From assembly GCA_025150425.1 (NCBI GenBank), contig CP102281.1, forward strand, positions 1,364,001 to 1,428,000: a stretch of 64,000 nucleotides of DNA, in the 5' to 3' direction. Positions 9,251-54,020 of this stretch are shown piece after piece. Below the pieces are notes generated by a model. That model saw only the letters and a list, made by a program, of their open reading frames with translations, did no database searches and was not told the DNA's origin. This DNA comes from [Eubacterium] siraeum (GTDB taxonomy: Bacteria; Bacillota; Clostridia; Oscillospirales; Ruminococcaceae). Numbering within the stretch: position 1 is the first letter of the stretch; every line of letters begins with the position of its first letter. Made by a program: the position numbers and the translations under genes.

Positions 9251-9496
9251 CAGTCTGTCGATAAACCTATATATTTTTGAAAATGGGGTTTGGGGCGTAG
9301 CCCCAATGCGGGTTGTCAGTCGTTGGTGTCGCTGCGTCGTGCAGCGACTGTGTGCGACTGACTGCAAGCATCCTTGCTTGGTGAGGGCGGCAGCCCCACA
9401 CTCAGCCCCTTTCCGAGGGAAAGGGGTTTGGGGATAGGGATTAAGGACAAGCACTTTTTGAAAAAAACATACTTTTTTTCTACAAGCTACAAGCTG
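9251..9496 (+). mobile_element. Non-coding inverted-repeat element A (MITE-like)
   Basis: 246 bases without a credible gene. The left end CAGTCTGTCGATAAACC and the right end, read on the other strand as CAGCTTGTAG, are imperfect terminal inverted repeats. Inside are a TTGGGGC-GTA-GCCCCAA hairpin (about 9290-9306), a nested double hairpin (9315-9362), a CAAGCA/TGCTTG hairpin, the motif GGGCGGCAGCCCC and a CCCCTTTCC-GAG-GGAAAGGGG hairpin (about 9406-9426). The same modules recur in D1 and D2. No transposase is present, so it would be non-autonomous. It fills most of the 411-base gap between the CvpA-family gene and clpE. Confidence 0.75.
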
Positions 9497-9567
9497 TTAT
9501 CTCATAAACAACAACAGCTTACAATACAATAAAAATACAAAAGAACCTAAAGAAAGGTTGGATATAA

Positions 9568-11853
9568 ATGCTTTGCTCAAGATGTAAAAAAAGACAAGCG
9601 GTAGTTTTTATCTCGACAATACAGGGCAATGACAAGCGTGACGAGGGACTTTGCCTTATCTGCGCAAAAGAGCTCGGTGTTCCGCAGGTAAACGACTACC
9701 TTGAAAAAATGGGAATCAGCGATGAGGACCTTGAAGAAAGCTATAAAATGATTTTCGGTGATGTCGATGAAGAATCAGGTGCAGACGCAGACAGCGGCGC
9801 AGACGATGACTTCACACCCGGCGGCGCAGGCACAATGATGCCCTTCTTCAAGCGTTTTGCCGCAAACAAGGACAGTCAGACCGAAAGCGAAAAGCAAGAC
9901 TTAAAGGACGATAAGAAGCACAATAAGAAAAAAGAGGAGAAAAAGAGAAAATTCCTCGATACCTATTGCACCAATCTTACCGCCAAGGCAAAAAAAGGCG
10001 AGATTGACCGTATAATCGGCAGAGAGAAAGAGATCTACCGTGTAATGCAGATTTTATCCCGCCGTACAAAGAACAACCCCTGCATAATAGGCGAACCCGG
10101 TGTCGGTAAAACCGCTATTGCAGAGGGCATAGCTCAGAAGCTGGCGGACGGCGATGTTCCCTTCAGACTTCAGGGTAAGGAGCTTTATATGCTCGACCTT
10201 ACCTCCCTTGTCGCAGGCACGCAGTTCAGAGGTCAGTTCGAAGGCCGTGTGAAAGCGCTTATTGAGGAGATAAAGACCGCAGGTAATATAATCCTCTTTA
10301 TTGACGAGGTTCATAACCTTGTCGGCACAGGCGACAGCGAAGGCACGATGAATGCCGCAAATATCCTCAAGCCTGCTTTGTCAAGGGGAGAGGTGCAGGT
10401 CATCGGTGCTACAACGTTCAACGAGTACAGAAAGTATATCGAAAAGGACTCCGCACTTGAAAGACGTTTCCAGCCCGTAACGGCAAACGAGCCGTCAATA
10501 GAGGATACTATCGAGCTTTTAAAGGGCATCAAGGAATACTACGAAGAATACCACAAGCTGTATGTCAGCGATGATATTTTAAAAAGCTGTGCCGTTCTCA
10601 GCGAACGCTACATTACCGACAGGTATCTTCCCGACAAGGCGATAGACCTGCTCGACGAGGCGGCGGCTTGCGCCAGCATAAACAGCAAGGAACTTACCGA
10701 GTACGAACAGCTTAAAAAGAAAAACAAGGCTCTTGAAACCGAAGAAAACAACCTGTCCGCCGAAACCGAGAACAAGGATTATCAGCGTATAGCCGAGATA
10801 AAGACCGAGCTTGCAAAGAATACAGCCCGTATTGACGAGCTTGAGCCTATGATAAAGGAAGTACACGTTACAGAAAACGATGTCTGCAAGGTCATCGAGC
10901 TGTGGACGGGTATCCCGGCAAGCAAGTTGCTTGAAACCGAATTCAAGCGTATTGCAAACCTTGAAACCGTGCTTAAATCAAAGGTAGTCGGTCAGGACGA
11001 AGCGTGCGAGCTTGTAGCCGCCGCTATAAAAAGAACTCGAGTTCAGCTTTCCGCACGTCGCAGACCTGCGTCATTCATTTTCGTAGGTCCTACAGGTGTC
11101 GGCAAGACCGAGCTTGTAAAGGTGCTTGCAAACGAGCTTTTCAACACAGTTGACCCGCTTATAAGACTTGATATGTCCGAGTTTATGGAAAAGCACAGCG
11201 TTTCGAGAATCATCGGCTCGCCTCCCGGATATGTAGGATACGATGAGGCAGGTCAGCTTACCGAAAAGGTACGCAGAAAGCCCTATTCCGTAATTCTCTT
11301 TGACGAGATAGAAAAGGCTCATCCCGATGTAATGAACATTCTCCTGCAAATTCTTGATGAAGGCAAGGTAACCGATGCTCACGGCAGAACGGTCAGCTTC
11401 GAGAATACCGTAATCGCCATGACCTCAAACGCAGGCTCATCATTCAATACAAGCGGTCTTGGCTTTGCAAAGAGCGAGGCGGATATTTCAAAGGACAAGG
11501 CGATGAAGGCTCTTGGCGAATTCCTTCGCCCCGAATTCCTGAGCCGTGTTGACGAGGTAGTAGTGTTCAAGCCCCTCACCCTCGATGCCTACAAGGGCAT
11601 TGCCGGACTTATGATAGGCGAGATGAAAGAGCCTCTGCTCGAAAAGAACATAACGCTTAACGTCAGCGATGAGGCTTATGAGCTTGTTGCGAAAAAAGCG
11701 TCCGGCGGCAAGTTCGGCGGCAGAGATGTCCGCAAAGTTGTCCGTAAGGATATTGAGGACAAGGTAGCAAATATCATAGTCGAAGCCGACGGCAACATAT
11801 CACAGATAGACGTTGACGCAGACGGCGACGAGATAAAGGTAACAGGCAAGTAA
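9568..11853 (+). CDS. clpE: ClpE-type Clp protease ATP-binding subunit with N-terminal zinc finger
   Basis: 761 aa class I Clp/Hsp100 unfoldase that would feed substrates to ClpP or disaggregate proteins. The N-terminus carries a four-cysteine zinc finger (Cys3, Cys6, Cys29, Cys32) as in ClpE, in place of the double Clp-N repeats of ClpC. An acidic then lysine-rich linker (residues ~65-128) precedes NBD1 (Walker A GEPGVGKT at 175-182), a coiled-coil M region near 385-430, and NBD2 (Walker [10 protein letters not shown] near 510) with the [21 protein letters not shown] segment and a D2-small domain. The ribosome site AAAGAAAGG is upstream. ClpE is controlled by CtsR in Bacillus; I see no clear CtsR heptad repeat here. 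Confidence 0.92.
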
Positions 11854-11861
11854 ATAAGCAA

Positions 11862-11900
11862 GGCATTGCATTAACTCCGGCAGGTAATGCAATGCCCGTT
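11862..11900 (+). terminator. Rho-independent terminator after clpE
   Basis: A 12-bp perfect stem (GGCATTGCATTA at 11862-11873 pairing with TAATGCAATGCC at 11885-11896) and a following CGTTTTAT tract, 9 bases after the clpE stop. Confidence 0.85.
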
Positions 11901-11920
11901 TTATAATCGAAAGGATTACT

Positions 11921-12625
11921 ATGGCAGTAATTATTACAGGCGGAACAGGAGCTATCGGCAGTGCTATGGCTCGTGCCTTCGCAAAAACAAACGATGTTGC
12001 TATAATCTACAAAAGCTCCGATGAAAAAGCCCGTCAGCTTGAAAATGAACTCGGCTGCACGGCATATAAGGCAGATGTTTCCTCCGCTAAAGAGGTGTCG
12101 GCTGCGGTAGAACGAATAGCGGCTGATTTCGGAAAAATAGATGTGCTTATCAATAATGCCGGCATATCCCGGATTAAAATGCTGAGCGATGTCACCGAGC
12201 TTGACTGGTACAATATGATTGACGTTCACCTTACAGGCGCATTCAATATGACAAAGGCGGTACTGCCTTTTATGATAAATCGCAAACAGGGAAGCATCAT
12301 CAACATTTCGTCGGTGTGGGGAGTATACGGAGCGTCCTGCGAAGTGCCTTACTCAACTGTCAAGGCAGGACTTATCGGCTTCACAAAATCACTCTCCAAA
12401 GAGGTCGCCCCCAGCGGAATAACCGTAAACTGCATCGCCCCGGGAGTAATCGACAGCCCTATGAACAATGCTCACCTGTCGCCCGATGAGATGAACGAGC
12501 TTATCGCCGAAACTCCGCTCGGCAGGCTCGGAACACCCGATGATGTGGCACAGGCGGCTGTATACCTTGCCTTTGCAGGCTTCGTCACAGGTCAGATACT
12601 CGGAGTAGACGGCGGATTTTATTGA
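11921..12625 (+). CDS. SDR-family reductase, FabG-like (possibly YmfI-type EF-P 5-aminopentanone reductase)
   Basis: 234 aa NAD(P)-dependent short-chain dehydrogenase/reductase. The glycine-rich nucleotide motif TGGTGAIG is at residues 6-13, NNAG at 78-81, catalytic Ser about 130-131, Tyr144 and Lys148 (YSTVK), and the C-terminal GQILGVDGGFY. The segment around NISSVWGVYGASCEV resembles the reductases that finish 5-aminopentanol modification of EF-P (YmfI-type), but 3-oxoacyl-ACP reductases look similar, so the substrate is open. It is flanked by terminators on both sides and is thus a single-gene unit; no other fatty-acid synthesis genes are nearby, which weakens a FabG assignment. Confidence 0.85.
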   Translation: MAVIITGGTGAIGSAMARAFAKTNDVAIIYKSSDEKARQLENELGCTAYKADVSSAKEVSAAVERIAADFGKIDVLINNAGISRIKMLSDVTELDWYNMIDVHLTGAFNMTKAVLPFMINRKQGSIINISSVWGVYGASCEVPYSTVKAGLIGFTKSLSKEVAPSGITVNCIAPGVIDSPMNNAHLSPDEMNELIAETPLGRLGTPDDVAQAAVYLAFAGFVTGQILGVDGGFY

Positions 12626-12643
12626 TTAACTTAATACATTTGA

Positions 12644-12676
12644 GCTGTACCTTTTCGGTACAGCCTTTTCTTTTTC
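12644..12676 (+). terminator. Rho-independent terminator after the SDR gene
   Basis: Stem GCTGTACC (12644-12651) and GGTACAGC (12657-12664) with a TTTTC loop, followed by CTTTTCTTTTT. Confidence 0.85.
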
Positions 12677-12688
12677 CCTGACAAACAG

Positions 12689-12717
12689 TAATATTATGTC
12701 CCGCACCCTCATATATT
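12689..12717 (+). promoter_or_regulatory. Sigma-E-type (mother cell) promoter of sipL
   Basis: TAATATT (12689-12695), a 14-base spacer, then CATATATT (12710-12717). This fits the sporulation sigma-E consensus (KMATATT, 13-15 bases, CATACAMT) and sits about 45 bases upstream of the sipL ATG, in a locus expected to be mother-cell expressed. The in-frame codon at 12696 falls inside this promoter, which argues against it as a start. Confidence 0.7.
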
Positions 12718-12761
12718 GTGTTAAAACCCGTACAAGAGGGAAACAGCTAAAGGAGGATTAT

Positions 12762-14291
12762 ATGGACTTTTCCGTAAATAAAGAGCCTGTATTTGTCACA
12801 GAAGTGATATATGACGGACAGGCGGAGCAGGGTGTCGAGTTTGATTATGTCCTGCCGGATTATTACCCCGACATTTTCAGAATATTAAGATGCACCCTTC
12901 GTCCCGGAATAGTATCCTGCAACATTTCGGGCGACAAGCTGATACTAGACGGTGTGATATGCATCACCGCACTCTATCTGAGCGAGGGCGGAGGTATGGA
13001 GTGCGTAGAGCATCGCTACAGCTATTCAAAAACGGTCGATCTGCCGAAATCAGCCGACAACGGCACGGTAACTGTCGAGCCTAAGGTGGATTACACTACC
13101 TGCCGTGCGGTTTCGGGCAGACGCATTGATGTCAGGGGAGCGGTCAGCTTCAGGATAAAGGTCGAGAACATAACACCGTTTGAGATAATAACGGATATTG
13201 AAGGCTGTAACATACAGACAAGAAAAAATAAAGTAAGCTGTACAAGAAAGCTCACCGCAGGAAAGCAGTTCGTTGTCCGTGAAGATATAGGCGTATCCGG
13301 CATTGACGGCACAGTGAAAGCCGTTGTAAGCTGTGATGCCACAGCGGTCGTTAATGACTGCAAGATAATCGCAGACAAGGTCGTGCTTAAGGGCGAGGCA
13401 AAGCTGAAGGCGCTGTATCTTGTCGGAAACGATAACGGCACATATCTTCAGACAATGGAAGCCGAGATTCCCCTCAGCCAGATAGTCGATATGCAGGGCA
13501 TTGACGAAAGGCACACCTGCTACGCTCTGTTCAGAGTTCTGTCATGCGCTCTTACGGTAAAGTCCGCCGATGACGATACGTCGGGAGTATTCGGCTGTGA
13601 GCTGACAATCGGCTCTCAGATTACCGCAACGCTTGAAGAAAGCATTTATCCCGTCACCGATATGTATTCCACGTCCTACGAATCAAGCTACACCACTTCT
13701 GCGTTGAAAACCGAATCCGACCACAGATTTATCAGCAGAACGCTTAATATCAAACAGCTTATCGATTGCGAAAACGGCATTCCCGACAGCGTGACGGACG
13801 CTGAATGCTTCGTGTCGGAAATAATCTGCAGACCGTGCGAAAACGGCGAGCTTAAAGTGAGCGGTAAACTGCTGTGCTTTATCAGTGCCGTAAAGGACAA
13901 CGAGCCGGTATTCATTGAAAAAAATCTGCCGTTTGATGTTTCGGAACAGCTTGGTATGGTTACCGACGGTTGCGTAATACAGCCTGTTGTGAACATATCG
14001 TCCGTAAGCTACAGCATTACCGATGACGGTATCGAAATAAGATGCTCGCTTCTTATGCAGGGATGTATGTATGTTTGCGGCACAAGTCAGATAATAAAGC
14101 AGATAGAGCTTAACGAAAACGCAGAAAAGCAAAAGTGCGATGATTATTCGCTGAAGCTGTATTTTGCCGATGAAAACGAGGATGTATGGAACATAGCAAA
14201 ACGCTATAACACTTCTGCGGCGGCGATAGAATCCGAAAACGAGGTCACCGACGGCAAAGTGTCAGGCCTGCTTCTGATTCCGATAATATAA
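12762..14291 (+). CDS. sipL: SipL-like spore coat morphogenesis protein (SPOCS/DUF3794 repeats plus LysM)
   Basis: 509 aa from the ATG at 12762, which has AAAGGAGG 5-6 bases before it. The protein has two to three tandem beta-rich SPOCS/DUF3794 repeats (PDYYPDIFRIL- near residue 30, then similar modules near 160-250 and 310-440) and a C-terminal LysM-like domain (VWNIAKRYNTSAAAIESEN- near 475-505). This is the SipL architecture; in Clostridioides difficile SipL binds SpoIVA to anchor the coat. The adjacent downstream gene is spoIVA, which supports the assignment. A sigma-E-type promoter lies upstream. Confidence 0.88.
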   Translation: MDFSVNKEPVFVTEVIYDGQAEQGVEFDYVLPDYYPDIFRILRCTLRPGIVSCNISGDKLILDGVICITALYLSEGGGMECVEHRYSYSKTVDLPKSADNGTVTVEPKVDYTTCRAVSGRRIDVRGAVSFRIKVENITPFEIITDIEGCNIQTRKNKVSCTRKLTAGKQFVVREDIGVSGIDGTVKAVVSCDATAVVNDCKIIADKVVLKGEAKLKALYLVGNDNGTYLQTMEAEIPLSQIVDMQGIDERHTCYALFRVLSCALTVKSADDDTSGVFGCELTIGSQITATLEESIYPVTDMYSTSYESSYTTSALKTESDHRFISRTLNIKQLIDCENGIPDSVTDAECFVSEIICRPCENGELKVSGKLLCFISAVKDNEPVFIEKNLPFDVSEQLGMVTDGCVIQPVVNISSVSYSITDDGIEIRCSLLMQGCMYVCGTSQIIKQIELNENAEKQKCDDYSLKLYFADENEDVWNIAKRYNTSAAAIESENEVTDGKVSGLLLIPII

Positions 14292-14335
14292 CAATACTCA
14301 AGATACGGCATTTTGCTGACAGATAAGGAGAATTT

Positions 14336-15811
14336 ATGCCAAAATCAATTTATAAGGATATTTCCGAGCGAACAGGCGGAAATATCTATATAGGAGTTGT
14401 CGGTCCCGTCCGTTCGGGGAAATCGACCTTTATCAGCAGGTTTATGAACGTGCTGGTCGTACCGTCAATCGAAGACGAATTCCGCAGGGAAAGGGCAGTG
14501 GATGAGCTTCCTCAGTCTGCGGCAGGAAAAACGATAATGACCACAGAGCCGAAATTCGTGCCTGAGGAAGCGGTAAATATCACCGTTGACGAAAGCGTGG
14601 AAATGAATGTAAGACTTATCGACTGCGTAGGCTACATAGTTCCCGGCGCAAAGGGCTATATAGAAAACGAAGCACCGAGAATGGTCAAAACGCCATGGTT
14701 TGACGAGGAAGTGCCGTTCAATATGGCGGCGGAGGTCGGTACTCATAAGGTAATCACAGAACACAGCACCATAGGACTTGTGGTCACCACAGACGGCAGT
14801 ATCACCGATATTCCGAGAGAGGAATACGAGGCGGCGGAGGAGCGTGTGATAAACGAGCTGAAAAGCATAAAAAAGCCGTTTACCGTAGTGCTTAACTGCA
14901 GCGATCCCTCATCGGAAGAATCAAAAGAGCTTGCTTGCAGGCTTTCGGAAAAGTACGGCTGTACCGTTACACCGCTGAACTGTCTTTACATCACCGAAGA
15001 AAATATAAAGGAACTGCTGTCCGATGTGCTTATGGGCTTTCCCGTAAGAGAGATAGGCATAAAACTGCCGAAGTGGTTAGCGTCCCTCGATAATGACCAT
15101 TACCTGAAAAAGCAGGTATTCGAAGCTGTAAGGACATCTGCGGAAAATATCTCCTGTATGGGTGATTTAGACAGCTTCACGGGTAAAATAGGGCAGTGCG
15201 AAAGCGTCAGCCGTTGCAGTAAGGATAAAACGGAGCTTGGCTCGGGAACAGCCTATGTCACAGTGGAACTGGGGCAGGAGCTTTTCTATAAGGTGCTTGG
15301 CGAAACCACAGGCATCGAGCTTAACGACGAGGGCGACCTTATGCCTTGCATGATTGAGCTTGCAAGAATCAAAAAAGAGTACGAAAAAGTCAGCACCGCA
15401 CTTGAGCAGGTCAGAGCCACAGGATACGGAATAGTAATGCCGTCTGCCGAGGAGCTTACCCTTGAAGAACCCGAAATTGTAAAGCAGGGCGGAAAATTCG
15501 GCGTAAGGCTCAAAGCGTCAGCCCCGTCAATTCATATGACCCTTGCAAATATCAACACTGAGGTAAACCCGATAGTCGGCAGTGAAAAGCAATCGGAGGA
15601 TCTTGTAAGGTATCTTTTCAGAGAATTTGAGGAAAATCCCACAAAGATATGGGAAAGCAATATTTTCGGAAAATCGCTCCACGAGCTTGTAAACGAGGGC
15701 CTGCACAATAAGCTGAGCCGTATGCCCGATGACGCAAGAGCAAAACTGCAGGAGGCGATACAGAGGATTATCAATGACGGCTGTAACGGGCTTATCTGTC
15801 TTATATTATAA
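14336..15811 (+). CDS. spoIVA: Stage IV sporulation ATPase SpoIVA
   Basis: 491 aa cytoskeletal ATPase that polymerises on the forespore surface as the coat basement layer (mother cell). Walker A GPVRSGKST at residues 23-31; the FMNVLVVP, DCVGYIVPGAKGY and HSTIGLVVTTDGSI segments are characteristic, and the C-terminal region is full length. It lies 44 bases after sipL with its own AAGGAG site, so it is probably cotranscribed. The hairpin at 15826-15858 follows the stop. Confidence 0.96.
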   Translation: MPKSIYKDISERTGGNIYIGVVGPVRSGKSTFISRFMNVLVVPSIEDEFRRERAVDELPQSAAGKTIMTTEPKFVPEEAVNITVDESVEMNVRLIDCVGYIVPGAKGYIENEAPRMVKTPWFDEEVPFNMAAEVGTHKVITEHSTIGLVVTTDGSITDIPREEYEAAEERVINELKSIKKPFTVVLNCSDPSSEESKELACRLSEKYGCTVTPLNCLYITEENIKELLSDVLMGFPVREIGIKLPKWLASLDNDHYLKKQVFEAVRTSAENISCMGDLDSFTGKIGQCESVSRCSKDKTELGSGTAYVTVELGQELFYKVLGETTGIELNDEGDLMPCMIELARIKKEYEKVSTALEQVRATGYGIVMPSAEELTLEEPEIVKQGGKFGVRLKASAPSIHMTLANINTEVNPIVGSEKQSEDLVRYLFREFEENPTKIWESNIFGKSLHELVNEGLHNKLSRMPDDARAKLQEAIQRIINDGCNGLICLIL

Positions 15812-15825
15812 AAGTCCGCCATATA

Positions 15826-15858
15826 AAAAGACCGCACCTCATCACAGGTGCGGTCTTA
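15826..15858 (+). repeat. Terminator-like hairpin, left target duplication of element B
   Basis: A 33-base sequence containing the stem GACCGCACCT/AGGTGCGGTC, 14 bases after spoIVA. An identical 33-base copy occurs at 16213-16245. The two copies immediately bracket element B, so they are read as a target duplication of the original spoIVA terminator. In this left copy the hairpin runs into element sequence and not into a long T tract. Confidence 0.75.
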
Positions 15859-16212
15859 GTCTGTCGATAAACCGATTATTATTAAAGCCCACGCAGTGAA
15901 ATATTTCACCAACCTCGCCTCGCACCAACCCTTTCAAAACCGCACTATCCCTCGCCTCGCACCACCACACTTGCCTCCCTTGTCAAAGGGAGGTGGATTG
16001 GCGGCAAGGCACAAACCTTAACATTATTGCATTTACTTGCGATACGCTCACCATTTTTATATTGCAAACTTTTCTGCCGTCAAGACGGAGGGATTGCCAC
16101 ACCACCAACCTCGCATCGCACCAACCCCTCCTGTTGCACCGAATACTGCCATTCCCACACAACCATTGCAAAAGAACAACAATCCCTCGCTCAACACTTT
16201 CCCTACAAAACC
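15859..16212 (+). mobile_element. Non-coding inverted-repeat element B (MITE-like)
   Basis: 354 bases, no credible gene. The left end GTCTGTCGATAAACCGAT is shared with elements A and C, and the next ~35 bases (AAAGC..., ...ATTTCACCAACCTCGCC) are close to element C (34598-34640). The right end CCCTACAAAACC is an imperfect inverted match. The interior is pyrimidine-rich with repeated CCTCGC/GCACCAACC words and a CCTCCCTT-GTC-AAAGGGAGG hairpin near 15974-15993. ORFs over this region are repeat-driven and are not called. Confidence 0.7.
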
Positions 16213-16245
16213 AAAAGACCGCACCTCATCACAGGTGCGGTCTTA
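16213..16245. terminator. Terminator hairpin, right target duplication of element B
   Basis: Identical over 33 bases to 15826-15858. It lies just downstream of the convergent minus-strand gene at 16259-16534 and may terminate transcription from either side; the stem is GACCGCACCT/AGGTGCGGTC. Confidence 0.7.
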
Positions 16246-16258
16246 CTTATTCTAAACC

Positions 16259-16534
16259 TTACTGCATCGCAGGATTACCGCCAAGCAGACTGAACATATC
16301 GATCCCCGCAAGACTCAGCAAAAAGCTGACAGCAATGAACAGCACAACAGCAACAACAGCCGCTATCCATACCGTTCTTTTCTGCTTTTTCGTCCAGGTG
16401 TGCTGAGGACGGGCTTCATCGCTCACACTGAATGAGATTGTTTCATCGCTTTTTACTGTGTCATGTGCGATCATATCGTCATTTTCGTGGTTTTCGCCGT
16501 ATTCTGCGTTTGCCAATACTTTCTCTTCGCTCAT
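16259..16534 (-). CDS. Small single-pass membrane protein, unknown
   Basis: 91 aa. An acidic soluble N-terminus (residues 1-48) is followed by a basic KKQKR and one hydrophobic helix (about residues 56-78), then a short tail. No recognised family. The gene lies 8 bases downstream of the Nudix gene on the same strand, so the two probably form an operon. The start ATG has a modest purine-rich site (AAGGACGG) upstream. Confidence 0.65.
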   Translation of the reverse strand: MSEEKVLANAEYGENHENDDMIAHDTVKSDETISFSVSDEARPQHTWTKKQKRTVWIAAVVAVVLFIAVSFLLSLAGIDMFSLLGGNPAMQ

Positions 16535-16542
16535 ATCCGTCC

Positions 16543-17061
16543 TTATTTTACTATATATTCCTTAGCCTTTTCAAGAATAAGCTGCTCCCTTTTAAGCACA
16601 AAGCTCATCTGATATTCCTTACACTGCTCGGAAAGAGCCTTGATGCGGCTTACAGCCTCGTCATAAGGCATCCATTCTATTTTATATCCCAGTCTTTCCT
16701 GCGAACGTTCAAGCATCGCAGTATCGCACTTGTCCGATACTTTCTTTGCCACATAGCAGTGTGAAACCATGCAGAATTTTCTTTTGAACTTATGCTCCTC
16801 TATCCATCCGAGATAGCCTAAAAGCTCGGCAGGGTAGCCGGTTTCTTCCGTTACTTCCCTTAAAAATGCCTTGTCGGGAGTTTCTGTTATCTCTATACTT
16901 CCGCCGGGCAGCTTGTAATATTCGGAGTCTTCTATCTTCATCATGGCAATGTTGCCCTCGCCGTCTGTCATGACTCCTCTTGTGTTATAACGTGCGTCGT
17001 CATCGATGTACTGAGGCTCACCGCCAAAGAAATCGCTTTCGGTTATCTTTGCAATAAGCAT
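16543..17061 (-). CDS. Nudix hydrolase
   Basis: 172 aa. The Nudix box is complete: Gly, five residues, Glu, seven residues, then REVTEETGY (near residues 66-88), so it should cleave a nucleoside diphosphate linked to another moiety with Mg2+. The substrate cannot be read from the sequence. The ATG at 17061 is preceded on the minus strand by AAAGGGACG. It is followed by the small membrane protein on the same strand and is divergent from the DUF1624 gene. Confidence 0.9.
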   Translation of the reverse strand: MLIAKITESDFFGGEPQYIDDDARYNTRGVMTDGEGNIAMMKIEDSEYYKLPGGSIEITETPDKAFLREVTEETGYPAELLGYLGWIEEHKFKRKFCMVSHCYVAKKVSDKCDTAMLERSQERLGYKIEWMPYDEAVSRIKALSEQCKEYQMSFVLKREQLILEKAKEYIVK

Positions 17062-17280
17062 TAATATGTCGTCCCTTTCATAGTGCGGAGCTTTCCGCTG
17101 TTTTTTTCATACATATAATATCACAAACGCACCTGCATTGCAATATAAAAAGGTAATTCACTTTTGTAGAAAACACCTATATATATGCCTTAATTATTGG
17201 TGATTATGCACAGTGGAACTTGACGTGCATTAGTGATATAATAACTTTATCCGACTAAAAAAATATGAGGAAAGATAAAA

Positions 17281-18060: not shown

Positions 18061-18075
18061 AATTTCAAAAAAGTC

Positions 18076-18104
18076 TTGACAAACCGTTTTCGGTTTGCTA
18101 TAAT
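18076..18104 (+). promoter_or_regulatory. Sigma-A promoter of rpsF-ssb-rpsR
   Basis: Perfect TTGACA (18076-18081), 17-base spacer, perfect TATAAT (18099-18104). The spacer contains an AAACCG/CGGTTT inverted repeat. The leader to rpsF is about 80 bases and includes a small CTCGTAC-AAGA-GTACGGG hairpin near 18144-18164 that might be a ribosomal-protein control site. Confidence 0.9.
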
Positions 18105-18191
18105 AATATAGCTTGACAAGTATACAACTTTGTCAACATCCCTTGCTCGTACAAGAGTACGGGCTTAATATCCACAAGGAGGTGCTTTATA

Positions 18192-18485
18192 ATGGCAAAG
18201 CTCAGCGAAAAGTATGAGGCAGTTGTTGTATTTTCACTCAAGAACGGTGAGGATGCAGTAAAGGCTCTCGTTGCTAAGTTCTCTGATCTGATCAAGGAAC
18301 ACGGCACATTAGTTGACGTTGATGAATGGGGCGCTCGTAAGCTCGCTTACGAGATAAACTACGAAACCGACGGTTATTATGTAGTTTACAGCTTCGACTG
18401 CAAGCCTGATTTCCCTATGGAATTCGAGCGTATCATCAACATCACTGACGGCGTTCTCCGTTCGCTCGTAACGGTACGCAAGTAA
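18192..18485 (+). CDS. rpsF: 30S ribosomal protein S6
   Basis: 97 aa, a full-length S6 starting MAKLSEKYEAVVVFS with the typical WGARKLAYEI and EFERIINITDGVLRSLV segments. AAGGAGG lies 6-7 bases upstream of the ATG. It is first in the conserved rpsF-ssb-rpsR operon. Codon use is biased towards GCT and CTC as expected for high expression. Confidence 0.97.
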   Translation: MAKLSEKYEAVVVFSLKNGEDAVKALVAKFSDLIKEHGTLVDVDEWGARKLAYEINYETDGYYVVYSFDCKPDFPMEFERIINITDGVLRSLVTVRK

Positions 18486-18521
18486 TCAAGGTTTGAAAAC
18501 AGACAGGAGGAACGATAACGT

Positions 18522-19013: not shown

Positions 19014-19035
19014 TCAAAATAAGGAGGATAAAACA

Positions 19036-44038: not shown

Positions 44039-44052
44039 GAAAGGACAACAGT

Positions 44053-46647: not shown

Positions 46648-46669
46648 TCAATAACTTAATAAGTCAAAG

Positions 46670-46705
46670 GCTCTGACGGGAGAACGTTCCGTCGGAGCTT
46701 TTTTA
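46670..46705 (+). terminator. Rho-independent terminator after the MMPL operon
   Basis: Stem of about 11-12 bp (46670-46681 with 46687-46698, including G-U pairs) followed by TTTTTTATT. Confidence 0.88.
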
Positions 46706-46810
46706 TTACAAATGTCATACGGGAAAATACCGTTTGTAACTGGTGAAATCCGCTTTGCAGGTGTATAATCGTTACAGTAAGATAAATAAACAGCCGAAAG
46801 GGGAATACTT

Positions 46811-47755
46811 ATGATATTTGCAAGCGTAAACAACCTTGTCAAGAATTATGGCAATCACTGTGCCGTAGATAACCTCAGCTTCAATGTAAGCGAGGGCGAG
46901 ATATTCGGACTTATAGGTCCTAATGGGGCAGGAAAGTCAACCACGATAAATATTATCACAACACTTGACGAAGCGACTTCGGGAAGTGTGACGATAGACG
47001 GTATGGATACAGTGAAGCAAAGAGCGGAGATAAGACGGATGATCGGATGCGTTCCGCAGGAGATTGCGGTGTACCCGTATCTTACCGCAAAGGAAAACGT
47101 TGAATTTTTCGCTTCACTGTACGGCTTCAAGGGCGAACAGCTTCATAAGAATGCTATGACAGCTCTCGAATTTGCGGGGCTTGCTGATAAGGCGGATATG
47201 AAGCCGAAGAAAATGTCGGGCGGTATGAAACGCAGACTTAACATTGCCTGCGGTATAGCACATAAGCCTAAGCTGATAGTTATGGACGAACCTACCGTAG
47301 GAGTTGACGCACAGTCAAGAGAGCATATAATGAGTTCGATAAAGAAACTGCGTGAAAGCGGTGCGACAGTAATATATACCTCGCACTATATGCACGAGGT
47401 AGAGGAAATCTGCGACAGAGTCGCTATAATTGACAAAGGCAGGCTTGTGGCAGAAGGTACACAGCAGGAACTTATAACGATGATAACCGACAGCTGTACG
47501 GTACATATCACCACAAAGCAGTGCGACAGCGAAACAAGAAGCAGAGTATCAAGGGCTGTTTCCTGCCTGCCCGATGTAAACAGGGTGCAATTTAACGACA
47601 ATATGATAAGCGTAGATATGAGCATAAGCTGTAACGATATTTCACACGTTATAAGCGAGCTTGTAAAGCAAAATCTGCCTGTAATCGAGATAAGCACGGA
47701 AAAGCCGGATATGGACGCTGTGTTCCTGTCGCTTACAGGACACGAGATACGTTAA
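46811..47755 (+). CDS. ABC-2-type transporter ATP-binding protein
   Basis: 314 aa. Walker A GPNGAGKST at residues 36-44, Q-loop VPQEIAVYPYLTA, signature MSGGMKRRLNIA, Walker B LIVMDEPTVGVD, H-loop TSHYMHE, followed by a C-terminal DrrA/CcmA-like extension. This composition matches drug, lipid or polyketide exporters. Two permease genes follow at short spacing. A plausible ribosome site AAAGGGGA precedes the ATG. Confidence 0.93.
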   Translation: MIFASVNNLVKNYGNHCAVDNLSFNVSEGEIFGLIGPNGAGKSTTINIITTLDEATSGSVTIDGMDTVKQRAEIRRMIGCVPQEIAVYPYLTAKENVEFFASLYGFKGEQLHKNAMTALEFAGLADKADMKPKKMSGGMKRRLNIACGIAHKPKLIVMDEPTVGVDAQSREHIMSSIKKLRESGATVIYTSHYMHEVEEICDRVAIIDKGRLVAEGTQQELITMITDSCTVHITTKQCDSETRSRVSRAVSCLPDVNRVQFNDNMISVDMSISCNDISHVISELVKQNLPVIEISTEKPDMDAVFLSLTGHEIR

Positions 47756-47766
47756 GGAGCGGAAAT

Positions 47767-48861
47767 ATGCTTAGTTTGATAATAAAACAGATTAGGGAGT
47801 ATTTCAGAAGCCCCGCAAACGTATTCATGGGGCTTTTCTTCCCGGTACTGCTGGTATTCTTTCTCGGAACAATGCTTCAGAATCTTGATATAGCAGATTA
47901 TGACATAGGAGAAATTAAACTGCAATACAGTGTTGCGCAAACAAACGAGCAAAGCGGAAAGGCATTTGCCGAGTTTCTTGACAATATCAATATGATAAAG
48001 GCGGAAAAGGCAAGCGATGAAAAAGCCGCACTGAGCCTTACCGATAAGGGCGATATAGACGCATATATAGAGCTTAAAAACGGGGAAATCCTGTTATACT
48101 GTGGCAGAAACGAAATTGCAAACAGGGCGCTCGGCTCGGTGCTGAATTCTTTCATTGCGGTATCAGATACATATTATAAAATAGCATCGACCGACCCGTC
48201 ACTGCTTATGAATACAGATACCGATACCGAAAAGTCATTTGTAGAGCAGGACGGACTTGGCGTTACACGGAGTATGATGGATTATTATGCGGTGAGTATG
48301 GCGGTAATGATGATATTCATGTCGCATATGATAATGGGCAGTACGGCTCTCAAGGACGAGGAAAGGATATTCACCCTGCAGCGTCTTTATCTGTCACCTG
48401 TCGGCAAAGTAAAGCTGTTTTTCGGAAAGCTCATCGGTACGCTTCCCTCCGCTGTTATAGGAAATGCGGTGATAATGCTTTTTTCGGTGTTTGTGTTCGG
48501 TGCGAAATACTGCGACAGCTTTGTCGGAAACCTTATCCTGTTCCTGCTGTTCTCCTGCTGCTCACTTGCGACGATAGCTGTAGGTATGCTGATAGGGGTA
48601 CTGATAAAAATACCTGCGGAGAGCATCGTGATACCGCTTACATGGGCATTGCTGTTCTTCTCAGGCTCGTTTTCAAAGCAGGTATTTATCGAAGGGCTCA
48701 GCGACAAGCTGCCGCCTTATATCGTTCAGCAGGCGGCATTCAGACTTACTCTTTACGGTGAAAGCGACAGTGCGTTGGCGGTAATTGCGGTATGCCTTGC
48801 CGTGACGGTTGCGGTATCGCTTATCGGTGCGGCAATATTCCGTGTAAAAAAATCCGTCTGA
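47767..48861 (+). CDS. ABC-2 family transporter permease
   Basis: 364 aa: one helix near residues 19-38, a large extracytoplasmic loop (about 40-170) and five helices (about 175-360), the ABC2_membrane_3 layout. AAGGAGCGG precedes the ATG. Pairs with the ATPase before it and the second permease after it. Confidence 0.88.
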   Translation: MLSLIIKQIREYFRSPANVFMGLFFPVLLVFFLGTMLQNLDIADYDIGEIKLQYSVAQTNEQSGKAFAEFLDNINMIKAEKASDEKAALSLTDKGDIDAYIELKNGEILLYCGRNEIANRALGSVLNSFIAVSDTYYKIASTDPSLLMNTDTDTEKSFVEQDGLGVTRSMMDYYAVSMAVMMIFMSHMIMGSTALKDEERIFTLQRLYLSPVGKVKLFFGKLIGTLPSAVIGNAVIMLFSVFVFGAKYCDSFVGNLILFLLFSCCSLATIAVGMLIGVLIKIPAESIVIPLTWALLFFSGSFSKQVFIEGLSDKLPPYIVQQAAFRLTLYGESDSALAVIAVCLAVTVAVSLIGAAIFRVKKSV

Positions 48862-48875
48862 AAGGGGAGCGTATT

Positions 48876-50012
48876 ATGAATAATATAAGAACGGTATTTT
48901 TCGGTATGCTGAAGCGTCTTAAATACGCACTTGTAATCGCACTTCTTGTAGGGGCAGGCAGTATAGGGCTTTATTACTGCGGCAGACCGATAGCAAACGT
49001 GTTCTCGGTAAACGACAAGATAGACATTGCCCTTACCGATAACGATAAATCGGAGCTTTCCGCAATGCTGAAAAGCTATCTCAGCGACAGGATAAATATG
49101 AACATTATCGAGGACGGCAAAGAAAAATTCAATGATAAATTGATTAACCGTGACGTTTCTGCTATAATAGAGATACCGCAGGGCTTTGAAAAGAATGTAA
49201 TCGGCGGAAAAGACGTGAAGATAAAATCCACCACTCTTGACGATTACGAAAACGGCGCTTATATCTCGGTATATATCGAAGGCTTTATGAGAAGCGTCAA
49301 TATTGCCGCAAATGCCGCAAAAGGCGATGCAGAGCTGTTTTCGAGAATTATGAACAGCGATGCCGCCGACACAAAGCTCACTAAGGAAAATGCGGTAATA
49401 TCCGACAGGGAGGACGAATATGTCTCTGCAGGCTTTAAGTTCTCCGAAGGATTTATGATAATGCTTGTCACAGCTATCGGCATATTTATCACACTTGCGG
49501 TAATGGAAGACAGGCAGTACGGAACATACAGCAGAATGGCTGTTTCATCTGTAACGGGCGTACAGTACATTGTCGGAACGCTTGGGGCAAGCGTGCTTAT
49601 ATCCTTTACGGCACTTGTCATTTTACCGCTGTACCTGCTTATCACGGGCGCTCAGATGACAGCCGGCTATCCGCTTGTGTTTGCCGCCGTAATAATCTAC
49701 TCGCTGTTCAACTCGGCATTATCAATAATGCTCGCACAGCTGATAAGCTCAAAGCAGGCTCTTGCCACGCTTTCGGGCTGTATTACCTCGATAGGCGCTC
49801 TGCTCGGCGGTGCGTGGTTTCCGATAGACGAAACGGCAGGTATGCTGAAATATCTGTCATATATCACGCCGCAATACTGGTATGTCTGCTTTATGTCGGG
49901 CGAGGCTGAACAGCCTGTGATAAACATCTGCGTGCTTATACTCTACACATTGCTTATAATGCTTGCAAGCGCCGCACTTTTCGGCAGAAAGTCGGTAGTT
50001 TCAAAGGCGTAA
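48876..50012 (+). CDS. ABC-2 family transporter permease (second)
   Basis: 378 aa from the ATG at 48876, which has AAAGGGGAGCG upstream; the longer in-frame ORF start at 48792 is inside the previous gene. Same topology as its neighbour: a first helix (about 15-37), a long loop with EIPQGFEKNVIGGKDVKI, then five to six helices. The two permeases likely form a heterodimer. Confidence 0.88.
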   Translation: MNNIRTVFFGMLKRLKYALVIALLVGAGSIGLYYCGRPIANVFSVNDKIDIALTDNDKSELSAMLKSYLSDRINMNIIEDGKEKFNDKLINRDVSAIIEIPQGFEKNVIGGKDVKIKSTTLDDYENGAYISVYIEGFMRSVNIAANAAKGDAELFSRIMNSDAADTKLTKENAVISDREDEYVSAGFKFSEGFMIMLVTAIGIFITLAVMEDRQYGTYSRMAVSSVTGVQYIVGTLGASVLISFTALVILPLYLLITGAQMTAGYPLVFAAVIIYSLFNSALSIMLAQLISSKQALATLSGCITSIGALLGGAWFPIDETAGMLKYLSYITPQYWYVCFMSGEAEQPVINICVLILYTLLIMLASAALFGRKSVVSKA

Positions 50013-50027
50013 CGAAAGGAATACGAA

Positions 50028-51149
50028 TTGTCACTTATATATCTTGTATTCAAACTCACGGCAACAGCCGCATTCGGCACTATGAATATAATGAATAACT
50101 GTGATTCGGGCGATACGGTGCTTACCGTACTCGCCTTTTCCTGCTTTGCTCTGGCTGAATATCTGCTGTCGGTGCTTAAAAAGTCGGATAAAGCGGCGGC
50201 GGTCTGTTCGTGCGTTTCGGCTTTTATCGCATTTCTTATATACAGCGACAATCTGATATTCGTGCTGTGCTTTGCCGTGATCTTTGCTGTAGATAAATTC
50301 GGTGCGGGAAAGTATTTCCGACATATCGGCGCTGTTTCGGTACTGCTTGTTCTTTTCATAGTAAAACCGCCGTTTATTGATGTTCTGATACTTATTATAA
50401 TGCTTGTGGCATTCACTGTCACCCATATTACCGCAGGACAGCTTATCAAATGCCGTGAACAGCTTGCAGAAAGCAGAGAGGAAACTGTTCGCCTCAACCG
50501 CAGGATAGCAAGCCTTGAAGAATACGCCAAAACAGCAAAGAAATCTGCGGCTGTCGAAGAACGCAGACGGTTTTCAGCAAGGATACACGATAAGCTCGGA
50601 CACAGCATTTCAGGAAGTATAATTCTGCTTGAGGCGGCAAAGCTGAACATCAGGACAAACCCCGACAGTGCGGAGCAATGTATTACTACAGTAACCGATA
50701 ATCTCAGAAGCGGCGTTGACGATATAAGGCAGGCATTGCGTGAGGAACGTCCCGACAGCAAAACAATAGGAATAAGCGAGCTTAAAGAGATACTCGGTGA
50801 ATATAAGGCAAAATATAACATAAGGACAACGCTTGAAATCAAGGGTGATGCGGACAGAATCACATTCCGCATATGGAACTGCATAAAGGAAAATCTCGTT
50901 GAAACGCTTACAAATACGCTCAAGCATTCGGGAGCGGACGAATTTTCGCTGAAAATATCGGTTATGAACAAGGTGATCCGTGCCGAGTTCAAGGATAACG
51001 GCAAAGGAAGCGACAGCTTCAGAAAGGGTACGGGTCTTACGGCGATAGAGGAGCGAACGGTGCTTACGGACGGAAAGTGCATATTTCCTGCACAGACGGA
51101 CGGATTTTCGGTAGTAAACATATTCAGTCTGAAAGAGGAGAACGTATGA
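50028..51149 (+). CDS. NarL-type sensor histidine kinase
   Basis: 373 aa with a TTG start and GAAAGGAA 8-9 bases upstream. Four to five hydrophobic segments fill residues 1-135, a coiled coil follows (about 140-175), then the HisKA_3 phosphorylation site ERRRFSARIHDKLGHS (His187) and a HATPase domain (NLVETLTNTLKHSG, DNGKG, GTGLTAIEERT). It overlaps the response regulator start and follows the ABC exporter, suggesting it senses membrane or drug stress and controls that exporter. Confidence 0.9.
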   Translation: MSLIYLVFKLTATAAFGTMNIMNNCDSGDTVLTVLAFSCFALAEYLLSVLKKSDKAAAVCSCVSAFIAFLIYSDNLIFVLCFAVIFAVDKFGAGKYFRHIGAVSVLLVLFIVKPPFIDVLILIIMLVAFTVTHITAGQLIKCREQLAESREETVRLNRRIASLEEYAKTAKKSAAVEERRRFSARIHDKLGHSISGSIILLEAAKLNIRTNPDSAEQCITTVTDNLRSGVDDIRQALREERPDSKTIGISELKEILGEYKAKYNIRTTLEIKGDADRITFRIWNCIKENLVETLTNTLKHSGADEFSLKISVMNKVIRAEFKDNGKGSDSFRKGTGLTAIEERTVLTDGKCIFPAQTDGFSVVNIFSLKEENV

Positions 51150-51769
51150 AGATAATTATCGCAGATGACGACAGCATAATCCGTGAGGGGCTTAAGATGA
51201 TAATCTCGTCACAGCCTGATTTCGAGGTGACAGGTGTCGCCTGCAACGGTGCAGAAGCGGTAGAGCTTTGCAGGAAATACAAGACCGATATAGCGCTGCT
51301 TGATATAAGAATGCCCGTTATGGACGGCATTGAAGCCGCAAAGATAATGCTTGAAGAAAATCTCTGCAAGCCGCTTTTGCTGACAACGTTTGACGAGCAG
51401 GAGCTTATACAGCGTGCGCTTAAAGTCGGGGTCAGCGGCTATATTCTCAAAAACACGCAGACAGACGGGATTTTCAGTGCGCTGAGGACGGTATATAACG
51501 GCGGTACGGTATTCCAGCAGGATATTCTGTCGTATATCCGTGACGCCGCAGTAAAATGCTACGGCAAGAGCGCCGTTTTCGGTCTGCTTACCGAAAGAGA
51601 GCTTGATATAGTAAAGCTGATTGCAGACGGCTGTTCGAACGCAGAAATTGCCGAAAAGCTGTTTTTGTCAAACGGTACGGTGAGAAATTATATCAGCGTT
51701 ATACTTGAAAAAACAGGTCTTGAACACAGGACGCAGATAGCGGTAAGGTATCTTAAGGGCGATGAATAA
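51146..51769 (+). CDS. NarL/LuxR-type response regulator
   Basis: 207 aa. The ATG at 51146 overlaps the kinase stop (ATGA) and is preceded by AAAGAGGAG; the in-frame start at 51077 lies inside the kinase gene. Receiver domain with acidic pocket DDD near residues 7-9, phospho-acceptor Asp53 in LLDIRMP, Thr in LLTTFDE and Lys in YILKNT; C-terminal LuxR helix-turn-helix LTERELDIVKLIADGCSNAEIAEKLF. Partner of the kinase just upstream. Confidence 0.93.
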   Translation: MKIIIADDDSIIREGLKMIISSQPDFEVTGVACNGAEAVELCRKYKTDIALLDIRMPVMDGIEAAKIMLEENLCKPLLLTTFDEQELIQRALKVGVSGYILKNTQTDGIFSALRTVYNGGTVFQQDILSYIRDAAVKCYGKSAVFGLLTERELDIVKLIADGCSNAEIAEKLFLSNGTVRNYISVILEKTGLEHRTQIAVRYLKGDE

Positions 51770-51773
51770 ATAG

Positions 51774-51809
51774 CTCCCGTAAGCCGACAAAACGGTTTAC
51801 GGGAGTTTT
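51774..51809. terminator. Convergent terminator between the two-component genes and the HAD gene
   Basis: 13-bp stem (51774-51786 with 51793-51805, one G-U pair) and a TTTTC tract on the plus strand; it lies 4 bases before the minus-strand stop of the HAD gene and may serve both directions. Confidence 0.8.
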
Positions 51810-51812
51810 CGT

Positions 51813-53378
51813 TTATGTGATTTTATAAAGATATTCGTTGCCTCTTTTGCCGATATAATCAATTACTCCGACATATTGCAGTATTTTGATTGTGATGCCT
51901 GCATCGCCTGAACGCATACACCTTCTGAATTCTTTAAGCGTAAATGTTTCGGGTAATCCTTCGGGGATAAAGCATCGGTAGCTGTCGCTGTCCTCAAGAA
52001 ACGTAAGGCGAAGCAGGGAGGTGGGAACGGCTACCTTTCTGTCTGTCTTTCTGCGTTTCATATCCTTTGCGCAATAGCGAAGATTTTCTACGGCTATATC
52101 CGCAATGCAGACGGTCAGATTCGGATCGTTCAGGTACTGCCTGATTCGGTACAGTTCAAGGAAAAAATCGGTCATATCGCTTGCGGTAACGTTCCGTCCG
52201 CTGCTGAGTATCTCGCCTGTCGCCTTATCGACATAATTAAGACGGCTCTTTTTATGAAAAGGGTAGACTATCGTAACGTGCGAGGCTTTGAGGAACGTAT
52301 TCAGCTTAGGTACAAGATAGCTGAAGTTTGCCGTCTGTATCTCAAAAATTCCGTTCTCGGTAACAAGGTCGGCAAAGTAACTGCCTATCTTTATTTCCTT
52401 ATCGAAAAGAGTGGCGGCAAAATAGCTTTTCAGCGTTGCGTGTATCTGCTTTTCGTTCAGTATACCCACACCGTCGCCGCTGTCGGCGGTAGCTGTACAA
52501 GCGCTGAACCGTGCATTGTCGGGCGAAACGTAAAGAGACTGCTTATCATACTGCCTTACCGTACAGCTGTCACACTGTATGAACACAGGCACACCGCCTT
52601 GCTCGTTTGAACGGATTATCCCCGTTGCAAGTTCTTTCAGCTTATCTGTAGCATTGGATACGGCATAGCATCTGTCGGCTACGGTAAACATTGATATATC
52701 GTTTGTGTTGTCGCCGAAAACTATAAGCTCATCCGCACCGACAAGCTCCTTCAGCTTCAGTGCCGCATTAGCCTTTGAAACGTCCTCACGGTAGATTTCA
52801 TACCAGTATTCGTCGGTATCGTATGTATCGGGCTGATAGTTTCTTGAAAAGCCGTTCGTTCTGTAAAAATATCGGTCAAGCTCATCGGGCTTCATTACAG
52901 GCTCGATAAGCGTTATATAATAAATATCGCCTTCGAACAGCTCGTCATAGCTTTTTGCTCGGTGCATTCTTCTGTCTCCGGCTCTGTCCTTTAAATAACG
53001 CTCCGTACCCTTGTTGAGTCGGTTTTTAAGATAGCTTACTCTTTCGTAATTGTCTATGACCGAGTACACAAGCACCGATTCTTTATGTTCATAGAAAAAT
53101 GACTTCATGAACGATTTTGATTCTTCACTGAAAAAATGCGTTACGATACGCTCCTTTGTGACAGGGTCGATTATAAAAGCGCCGTTATGAGTTATCACGG
53201 GCAGCCTGAAATTGATACAGCTTACTTTCGGCTCGGCTGAATGCACTGAACGTGCGGTGGCGTAGCTTATCTTTATATCATCGTCAATAAGCCTGTTCAT
53301 CAGTGCCTCTGTCATTCGTCCGATTTGCGCCTTATGGTCAAGAAGCGTCCCGTCAAGGTCGGTAAGATACAGTTTCAT
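51813..53378 (-). CDS. HAD-IIB (Cof-type) phosphatase fused to a PD-(D/E)xK nuclease-like and winged-helix module
   Basis: 521 aa. Residues 1-~262 are a Cof-like HAD phosphatase: DLDGT at 7-11, SYATAR near 39-44, and GDNTNDISMF at 222-231. After a Cys-containing linker, residues ~305-521 form a separate module: LNEKQIHATLKSYF (308-321), then IGSYFADLVTENGIFEIQT (331-349), whose Asp337, Glu346 and Gln348 have the spacing of a PD-(D/E)xK-type active site. A C-terminal winged-helix-like part (TLKEFRRCMRSGDAG..., GVIDYIGKRGNEYLY) follows. Cof HADs are normally ~270 aa, so this is a fusion. I recall similar stand-alone C-terminal modules in Clostridia; the nuclease reading is inference. AAATC-A-rich ribosome site is weak. 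Confidence 0.8.
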   Translation of the reverse strand: MKLYLTDLDGTLLDHKAQIGRMTEALMNRLIDDDIKISYATARSVHSAEPKVSCINFRLPVITHNGAFIIDPVTKERIVTHFFSEESKSFMKSFFYEHKESVLVYSVIDNYERVSYLKNRLNKGTERYLKDRAGDRRMHRAKSYDELFEGDIYYITLIEPVMKPDELDRYFYRTNGFSRNYQPDTYDTDEYWYEIYREDVSKANAALKLKELVGADELIVFGDNTNDISMFTVADRCYAVSNATDKLKELATGIIRSNEQGGVPVFIQCDSCTVRQYDKQSLYVSPDNARFSACTATADSGDGVGILNEKQIHATLKSYFAATLFDKEIKIGSYFADLVTENGIFEIQTANFSYLVPKLNTFLKASHVTIVYPFHKKSRLNYVDKATGEILSSGRNVTASDMTDFFLELYRIRQYLNDPNLTVCIADIAVENLRYCAKDMKRRKTDRKVAVPTSLLRLTFLEDSDSYRCFIPEGLPETFTLKEFRRCMRSGDAGITIKILQYVGVIDYIGKRGNEYLYKIT

Positions 53379-53417
53379 TTGATTTCTCCGATTACAATTT
53401 ATTTATATTTATATATC

Positions 53418-53701
53418 TCAGTATGGGGTTTGGGGCGTAGCACCAAGGCGGGTTGCAGGGACGCCGGTACCCGTATCCACCCCCGGCATGGATGCCGGGC
53501 GTGTATGCACAAGGGCTTTGCAAGGACGCAAAGCCAACCAAGCATACACAGCCTTTCATGGGGAAAGGGGGCAGTTCGGCATGGATGCCGAAATTAGGAC
53601 ACACCAAGCTTTGCAAGACGCAAAGCCATCAGAGTGTCCTAAAGGGAATAGGGATAATAAATCAGAAGTTTATTTCAAAAACAGACTTTTTCAGCAAACT
53701 G
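53418..53701 (+). mobile_element. Non-coding inverted-repeat element D1 (left end damaged)
   Basis: 284 bases. The left end reads CAGTATGGGGTTTGGGGCG: compared with D2 it lacks about 27 bases of the left arm. The right end CAGCAAACTG is intact. Contents: CCCGGCAT-GG-ATGCCGGG hairpin (about 53482-53499), nested double hairpin (53501-53549), TTCGGCAT-GG-ATGCCGAA, and TTTGC-AAGAC-GCAAA. The last ~75 bases are nearly identical to D2. Flanked by copies of ATTTATATATCT at 53406-53417 and 53703-53714. Confidence 0.72.
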
Positions 53702-53714
53702 AATTTATATATCT
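53702..53714 (+). repeat. Shared target duplication between D1 and D2
   Basis: AATTTATATATCT. Perfect copy at 54021-54033 and a 12-base match at 53406-53417, giving the order target-D1-target-D2-target. Confidence 0.75.
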
Positions 53715-54020
53715 CGGTCTGTCGAAAAACCAATATATTTTTGAAATGGGGTTTGGGGCGTAGCCCCAAGCGGGGTGAGGGCGGCAGCCCCACACTCACC
53801 CCCTTTCTGGGGAAAGGGGGCAGTTCGGCATGGATGCCGAAATTAGGACACACCAAGCTTTAAGCATGGATGCTTACAAGTGGTCGAACAAAGTCGGTGC
53901 AGGACGCACCGACAACAAACGACCACGATTGCAGAGAGGCAAAGCCATCAGAGTGTCCTAAAGGGGATAGGGATAATAAATCAGAAGTTTATTTCAAAAA
54001 CAGATTTTTTCAGCAAACTG
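53715..54020 (+). mobile_element. Non-coding inverted-repeat element D2
   Basis: 306 bases. Left end CGGTCTGTCGAAAAACC and right end, read inverted, CAGTTTGCTGAAAAAA. Contents: TTGGGGC-GTA-GCCCCAA, GGGCGGCAGCCCC, CCCCTTTC/GAAAGGGG, TTCGGCAT-GG-ATGCCGAA, AAGCAT-GG-ATGCTT, and a nested double hairpin (53880-53926). Compared with D1 it carries an extra hairpin block between CAAGCTTT and GCAAAGCCATCAG. The D1/D2 tract fills most of the gap between the HAD gene and gapA. Confidence 0.75.

Follow-up and report, generated by a model that had tools for sequence, protein, structure and literature searches.

What are the perfectly paired nested hairpins that lie in a 64,000-nucleotide stretch of the [Eubacterium] siraeum genome (contig CP102281.1, positions 1,364,001 to 1,428,000; hereafter the window), and is their fold needed as RNA or as DNA? 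A preliminary description had named three of them, A, D1 and D2, as elements alike in shape and sharing almost no sequence, and had proposed a structured RNA, a DNA fold recognised by a protein or a diversifying module as possible roles. Our findings suggest that they all represent a single small DNA module that is mobile but non-autonomous, and that its recognition depends on the fold and on the letters of the loops, not on stem sequence; to this reading we give a probability of roughly 60%. The copies have one fold, conserved loops and paired stems that drift; they are dispersed and nested, and one lone insertion has an empty counterpart. They also occur in high copy number, have a dispersed and lineage-limited distribution, are almost purely Watson-Crick in their stems and lie in both orientations. 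The earlier interpretation, taken as a whole, is partly supported.

Variable stems and conserved loops

The stems, loops and coordinates given earlier for A, D1 and D2 (Table 1) were confirmed, and all of them are perfectly paired. Three elements, on the other hand, was an undercount: a scan of the window for perfect nested stems of at least 7 bp, with internal and terminal loops of 3-8 nt, returned four, among them the overlooked T4, and none in 20 dinucleotide shuffles. With the minimum stem lowered to 5 bp there were 37 raw matches against 2-17 per shuffle, and it is therefore the long-stem class that gives the clear signal. Folded alone as single-stranded DNA (ssDNA), A, D1, D2 and T4 recovered the described structure at z-scores of -6.0 to -6.8 (-6.8 for module A), and each formed an extra small hairpin beside the nested one. 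Read in one orientation, all four are the same module of about 70-77 nt, a small hairpin followed by the nested hairpin; A runs opposite to D1 and D2, on the minus strand, an orientation that was missing from the preliminary description. The parts follow one another as a small hairpin with the tip GCANGGAYGC, a linker of 1-4 nt, an outer stem of 7-9 bp, an A-rich internal loop, an inner stem of 7-8 bp with the tip GCAN(G)GAYGC, a second A-rich internal loop and the returning outer arm.

The modules of the window lie in larger carrier repeats of about 200 bp, which appear to have moved too. A search of the first 15 carrier loci by structure only yielded 19 rows at a minimum stem of 6 bp; with two that had no tips (L006 2849 and L013 1950) and overlapping duplicates set aside, 13 modules remained, all 13 with both tips. 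Of the distinct nested hairpins with stems of at least 7 bp, 47 of 48 in this genome and 67 of 70 from relatives carry a pair of CA(n)GAnG tips on the same strand, a count made by structure with no motif asked, at loci that had themselves been picked by motif or model. The 5' internal loop ends in AAA in 30 of 54 distinct modules of this genome and in 60 of 97 from relatives, and among these 54 and 97 the outer arms come in 24 and 64 sequences, respectively. Loops are conserved while stems vary, and the statement that the copies share almost no sequence holds for the stems and fails for the tips and internal loops.

One and the same outer stem can be combined with different inner hairpins in this genome (TGAACGC with GGCTTTGC, GTTTTGC or GTTTCGC, for example), which points to recombination as another likely source of paired change. 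To this extent the diversifying role proposed earlier is partly right. Copies with degenerate stems, which had been expected to speak against a maintained fold, do exist and are few: only 2-3 bp of the outer stem are left in three of 82 copies (1491446, 1741699 and 1767680), and six of the 82, as delimited by script, contain a stem mismatch. Two copies, 1767680 and 2405829, resemble fusions of two modules.

Covariation

In the alignment of the 13 modules 87.1% of the pair cells are paired, 12 of 20 pairs show two-sided change and the covariation score is 0.449, against 0.186 when shuffled. The 84 matches of this genome (75 distinct rows) gave 92.6% paired cells, two-sided change at 17 of 20 pairs and a score of 0.576 (0.183 shuffled), and the 34 matches from relatives gave 97.0%, 19 of 20 and 0.892 (0.197 shuffled; at most 0.127 with slid partners). 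Having been fitted to the structure, these two larger alignments are biased in its favour; module sequences without alignment show the same pairing. None of 500 shuffles reached the score in any of the three alignments. The number of further pair types was as high in 114 of 500 shuffles for the 13 modules, in 64 for this genome and in none for the relatives. The claim that the fold itself is maintained is thereby well supported, and the covariation scores of the genomic copies lie far above their controls; as to chance, the score lies beyond all shuffles, whereas the count of further pair types is ordinary in two of the three alignments.

Copy number and distribution

The core carrier motif is present 15 times in the genome of 2.69 Mb when up to one mismatch is allowed. 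Searching this genome with R1, a covariance model made from the 13 modules, gave 83 matches at E up to 1, of which 82 reach E 3.2e-4 or better. The figure of 82 copies is a lower bound: scoring covered 150 of 932 first-look candidates, and in the fetched loci 84 matches had E up to 0.01. The 82 copies form 52 clusters, 46 of which lie outside open reading frames of at least 130 codons; the six others are inside such frames, which are possibly spurious, and the flanking genes were unresolved for 19. Like repetitive extragenic palindromic (REP) sequences, the modules are high-copy, mainly extragenic palindromes.

Matches were found in 25 of 99 relatives (this genome included), all within the genus, and in none of 39 genomes outside it. 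A wider model (R2) matched 36 of 71 genomes of the genus, leaving 35 without a match. In an order-wide sample of 394 genomes six matched, from two of 168 genera (five from this genus and one from another genus of the family); the large genome scans used stricter filters and scored a limited number of candidates. Plasmids gave no module match at E 1e-5, viral contigs gave none to one exact, narrow pattern, and R2 matched none of the 47 loci scanned out of 80 GAPDH-containing loci from named genomes. The GAPDH of this genome shares 94-95% identity with that of Ruminococcus/Oscillospiraceae genomes from gut and rumen and with that of Anaeromassilibacillus. Two unverified and unannotated human-faecal entries labelled "Bacteriophage sp." (MT836862.1 and MT835546.1; loci L288 and L289) hold eight matches to the module (E up to 0.01), some of them partial, and may be bacterial fragments or prophages.

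Empty sites and nesting

A lone module of 70 nt lies in a relative, G058 (L063 1570-1501, minus strand), where it follows the loop TTCAA, at its 3' edge, of a hairpin resembling an intrinsic terminator. In a sister species, G109, the same hairpin is uninterrupted and TTCAA runs straight into the 3' arm, the empty counterpart of the site. The junction is compatible with no duplication or with a 2-bp AA. At site A the flanks are 12-88 nt apart in six sister genomes (L272-L277; the sequence itself was inspected for four of the six), too close to hold a carrier of about 240 bp, and site D is empty in one genome (G025) and a remnant in another (G031). The carrier copies L001, L007, L008, L011 and L014 have no module where other copies have at least one.

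By reading, modules lie inside the inner hairpins of other modules at 472619, 1491362, 2126146, 467549 and 2549325 and in the case of D2. The D2 nested hairpin sits within the inner loop of a second module of T4 type and is enclosed by the split arms of that module; each half of this host directly repeats the T4 region, at 95% and 92% identity (repeat families D8 and D2). Tandem arrays occur at L148, L190, L178 and L095. The array at L095 (450-1350) comprises several modules right after a tRNA gene, together with at least two more nested hairpins, of the GCGGTCG type, that R1 did not report. Flank pairing of at least 8 bp surrounds nine of 107 module blocks in relatives (control 0.8%), and 24 blocks reach 6 bp or more (control 6%). 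By reading, the module has no terminal inverted repeat of the kind that marks a miniature inverted-repeat transposable element (MITE).

DNA fold, RNA fold and other explanations

The kinds of pairs in the stems bear on whether the fold is needed as RNA or as DNA. Modules were retained when they showed the tip motifs and had no fewer than 6 pairs and no more than 2 mismatches in each stem; this gave 56 distinct modules with 858 stem pairs (50 modules perfect) from the loci of this genome and 97 with 1519 pairs (72 perfect) from those of relatives. Among these 2377 pairs G-T occurs 13 times (0.5%) and A-C five times, whereas 11 tRNAs of the window and loci, used as a yardstick in their minimum-energy folds, have 30 G-U in 269 pairs (11%; Fisher p 3e-21, taken with 2391 pairs and with L118, a locus of this genome, among the relatives). 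Furthermore, the 56 copies that could be assigned to a carrier of clear direction divide into 28 on the strand of the carrier and 28 on the opposite one, so that a read-through transcript would hold half of the modules in antisense. Rare wobble and equal strands together favour a requirement at the DNA level, and from these sequences we favour the view that the fold would be needed as DNA rather than RNA. If modules acted in transcripts, as 3' ends, leaders or small RNAs, selection for an RNA fold would drive the compensatory changes and explain strong covariation together with conserved loops; read-through is conceivable, the gene 5' of the carrier pointing at it in 22 of the 32 clusters scored (open frames stand in for genes), and G-T is slightly commoner than A-C. 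We nevertheless consider such a role improbable in view of the wobble and strand counts, and at gathering score Rfam gave no family in the window and only a tRNA in seven loci. The structured RNA of the preliminary description is thus disfavoured by rare wobble pairs and mixed polarity, and its protein-recognised fold, as DNA within a mobile module, fits best. A more particular RNA role was raised by the GGA tips and a sub-threshold RsmZ match and was later weakened. CsrA, a translational regulator, binds GGA loops, and decoy hairpins with such tips (CANGGAUG) could titrate it: GGA is present in 131 of 151 small-hairpin tips (the filter required GA-type tips), this genome has a CsrA gene, and of the Rfam matches at the D locus that fall below threshold, the one to PrrB_RsmZ over T4 has the lowest E (0.064, at 18.3 bits against a gathering score of 44). 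CsrA is, however, undetected in five of 36 module-bearing genomes, two of these being 96-98% complete, and with CsrA in 31 of these 36 and in 24 of 35 module-free genomes the association has p 0.09; GGA is also missing from 17 of 97 small tips in relatives and from 71 of 151 inner tips, and the polarity of the modules is mixed. We regard decoys as very improbable.

Perfect stems could also arise with no function of the stem at all, if template switching during replication copied one arm onto the other and so made the palindromes perfect themselves and seem to covary. Double changes with few mismatched intermediates point this way, as do the 50 of 56 and 72 of 97 perfect modules of the preselected set, and one study reports that perfect stems can be made and kept up by single template-switch events (PMC8794818). 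Conserved strand-specific loops, the order of small and then nested hairpin and dispersal to empty sites are left unexplained, and as the whole account we judge this unlikely; template switching can, however, be compatible with mobility. The scarcity of mismatched intermediates fits it as well, and both processes may act together. Finally, modules might be immobile passengers spread solely by transposition of the carriers, in keeping with the direct repeats that flank 12 of 19 script-parsed carriers and with the few carrier positions at which, by reading, modules of this genome often recur. Carrier copies exist both with and without modules, modules lie in both orientations and within other modules, and the lone module in the terminator loop has no such carrier, all of which makes purely passive spread hardly credible.

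Several observations weigh against a mobile module recognised as folded DNA. There is only one empty site for a lone module, and the G109 locus has another insertion adjacent. Flanking stems of at least 6 bp are found in five of 72 blocks of this genome (control 6%), one of them at 8 bp, which is no clear excess, and several of the nine cases from relatives share one repeated context, so that independent cases are fewer; a general rule that modules sit between paired flanks was dropped, as it fails in this genome. The excess of G-T over A-C, 13 to 5 (p 0.10), is a weak hint of RNA; the wobble count is preselected, 17 raw finds from this genome and 24 from relatives having been dropped for want of an upstream small tip; and the 28:28 division counts copies that descend from few insertion positions. 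By eye, no transposase or recombinase was seen among 25 listed protein clusters near modules (129 loci, open reading frames clustered by blastp), and Y1 transposase was undetected in 22 of 36 module-bearing genomes.

Possible mechanism and candidate enzymes

If the modules are mobile DNA, a recombinase or transposase acting in trans would bind the folded strand, as ssDNA or as an extruded cruciform, with hairpin tips and edges as its preferred insertion targets. The requirement for the fold would keep the stems perfect, perhaps helped by template switching in replication, by which one arm is copied onto the other, and nesting would follow since the module is itself a hairpin target. We tentatively suggest, as a possibility more doubtful than mobility itself, that an enzyme of this clostridial lineage may read the shape of a DNA hairpin with three stems, together with its loop letters, and insert the module into the loops of other hairpins, terminators and modules alike, while the stems drift as unlinked "barcodes" and the element comes to nest in itself.

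The 25 protein clusters are mostly repeats read in frame, and two look like parts of ABC transporters. Y1 transposase (PF01797, fragments included) was found in 20 of 71 genomes of the genus, in 14 of 36 with modules and six of 35 without (p 0.06); its presence does not clearly track the modules, and it was set aside as sole mobiliser. This genome carries seven Y1 genes of the IS200/IS605 type (G000:C1, at 1294313, 1336186, 1356292, 1567847, 1584155, 1622915 and 1814075), six of which score alike.

If this reading is true, terminator loops would be landing sites for tiny mobile elements in gut bacteria. Strong covariation is usually taken as a mark of functional RNA; in the present family it is very strong, yet the modules look like mobile DNA, which calls for caution in covariation-based RNA discovery. 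The 151 distinct modules also form a natural dataset on the copying, repair and recognition of hairpins.

Relation to known repeats

REP and REPIN sequences, with their TnpA-REP (RAYT) transposases of the HUH type, are likewise short, high-copy hairpins (PMC8266576, PMC3116915); REP are recognised as folded ssDNA and are thought to be non-autonomous (PMC8266576). This is the nearest system in behaviour. Unlike REP, the module has three stems per unit, no GTAG foot, stems that vary freely within a genome and no linked Y1 gene that we saw. GTAG, the tag of one REP superfamily, occurs in the nested hairpin of one of 151 modules on the forward strand and one on the reverse. CGTC, the stem-end tag of the other, is found on the opposite strand of 64 of the 151 and on the forward strand of nine, and by reading the opposite-strand CGTC falls in the tip (GGACGC, CGACGC). 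The published GTAG and CGTC repeats carry their tag at one end of the stem (PMC3733652), whereas in the module GTAG is nearly absent and CGTC sits in the opposite-strand tip. CGTC palindromic repeats otherwise resemble the module, with stems of 8-9 bp, loops of 4-5 nt, a few families within larger palindromes and no known transposase (PMC3733652).

The stem-loop sequence families of bacterial genomes are likewise repeated, mostly intergenic and of common fold, and the words Ruminococcus, nested and compensatory are absent from the text on them (PMC2267715). Insertion sequence (IS) elements that enter REP palindromes (PMC1525189) also use palindromes as targets, an IS being inserted there and a hairpin module here. 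Template-switch hairpins (PMC8794818) could yield perfect stems with paired changes and leave conserved loops and dispersal unexplained. Integron attC sites, which are marked by R'/R'' boxes and an IntI integrase, are another kind of site recognised by its fold. A literature search by title and opening of the abstract returned no description of the module, which is weak evidence as most subscription papers lay outside its coverage.

Carrier repeats and features of the window

Table 1. Modules and carrier repeats of the window
Feature	Position	Strand	Details
Carrier repeat, GGGGTTTGGGG family	9251..9488	+	Holds module A; starts CAGTCTGTCGA; boundaries approximate, by reading
Module A	9311..9387	-	Small hairpin 9365-9380, nested hairpin 9315-9362; 66.8 bits, E 4.4e-12
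Two tandem carrier repeats	53418..54020	+	Hold D1, T4, split T4-type module and D2; ATTTATATATCT at either end and between the two repeats; approximate boundaries, by reading
Module D1	53476..53553	+	Small hairpin 53482-53499, nested hairpin 53501-53549; 73.8 bits
Module T4	53569..53645	+	Small hairpin 53575-53592, nested hairpin 53594-53642; 67.6 bits
Second T4-type module, split by D2	53824..53961	+	Small hairpin 53824-53841, read from sequence; outer arms 53843-53851 / 53953-53961; inner arms 53857-53861 / 53939-53945
Module D2	53854..53930	+	Small hairpin 53862-53875, nested hairpin 53880-53926; 62.6 bits

The carrier looks MITE-like, unlike the module. The direct repeats around the 12 carriers noted above were called at a score of at least 14, with seven carriers lacking them and six of 300 control window pairs reaching it; nine of the 12 have a hairpin (stem of at least 6 bp) inside the flanking repeat, by reading mostly a whole terminator. 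These flanking repeats resemble the long target-site duplications, 16-28 bp in length, that PMC10132070 reports for some members of the IS1202 family. At 15826-16245 of the window a related element of about 350 bp, starting with GTCTGTCGATAAACC, lies between identical terminator-like hairpins of 33 nt, and the whole hairpin looks to have been duplicated upon insertion. A second copy of the terminator hairpin of G109 (L291) starts 194 nt upstream, around a different insertion, which indicates that something else inserted there. Some carriers of this genome (L002, L009, L012, L040 and L076 among them) are flanked by duplicated hairpins of variable length, as would follow from transposition into an extruded hairpin, and at L009 three hairpin copies separate two elements.

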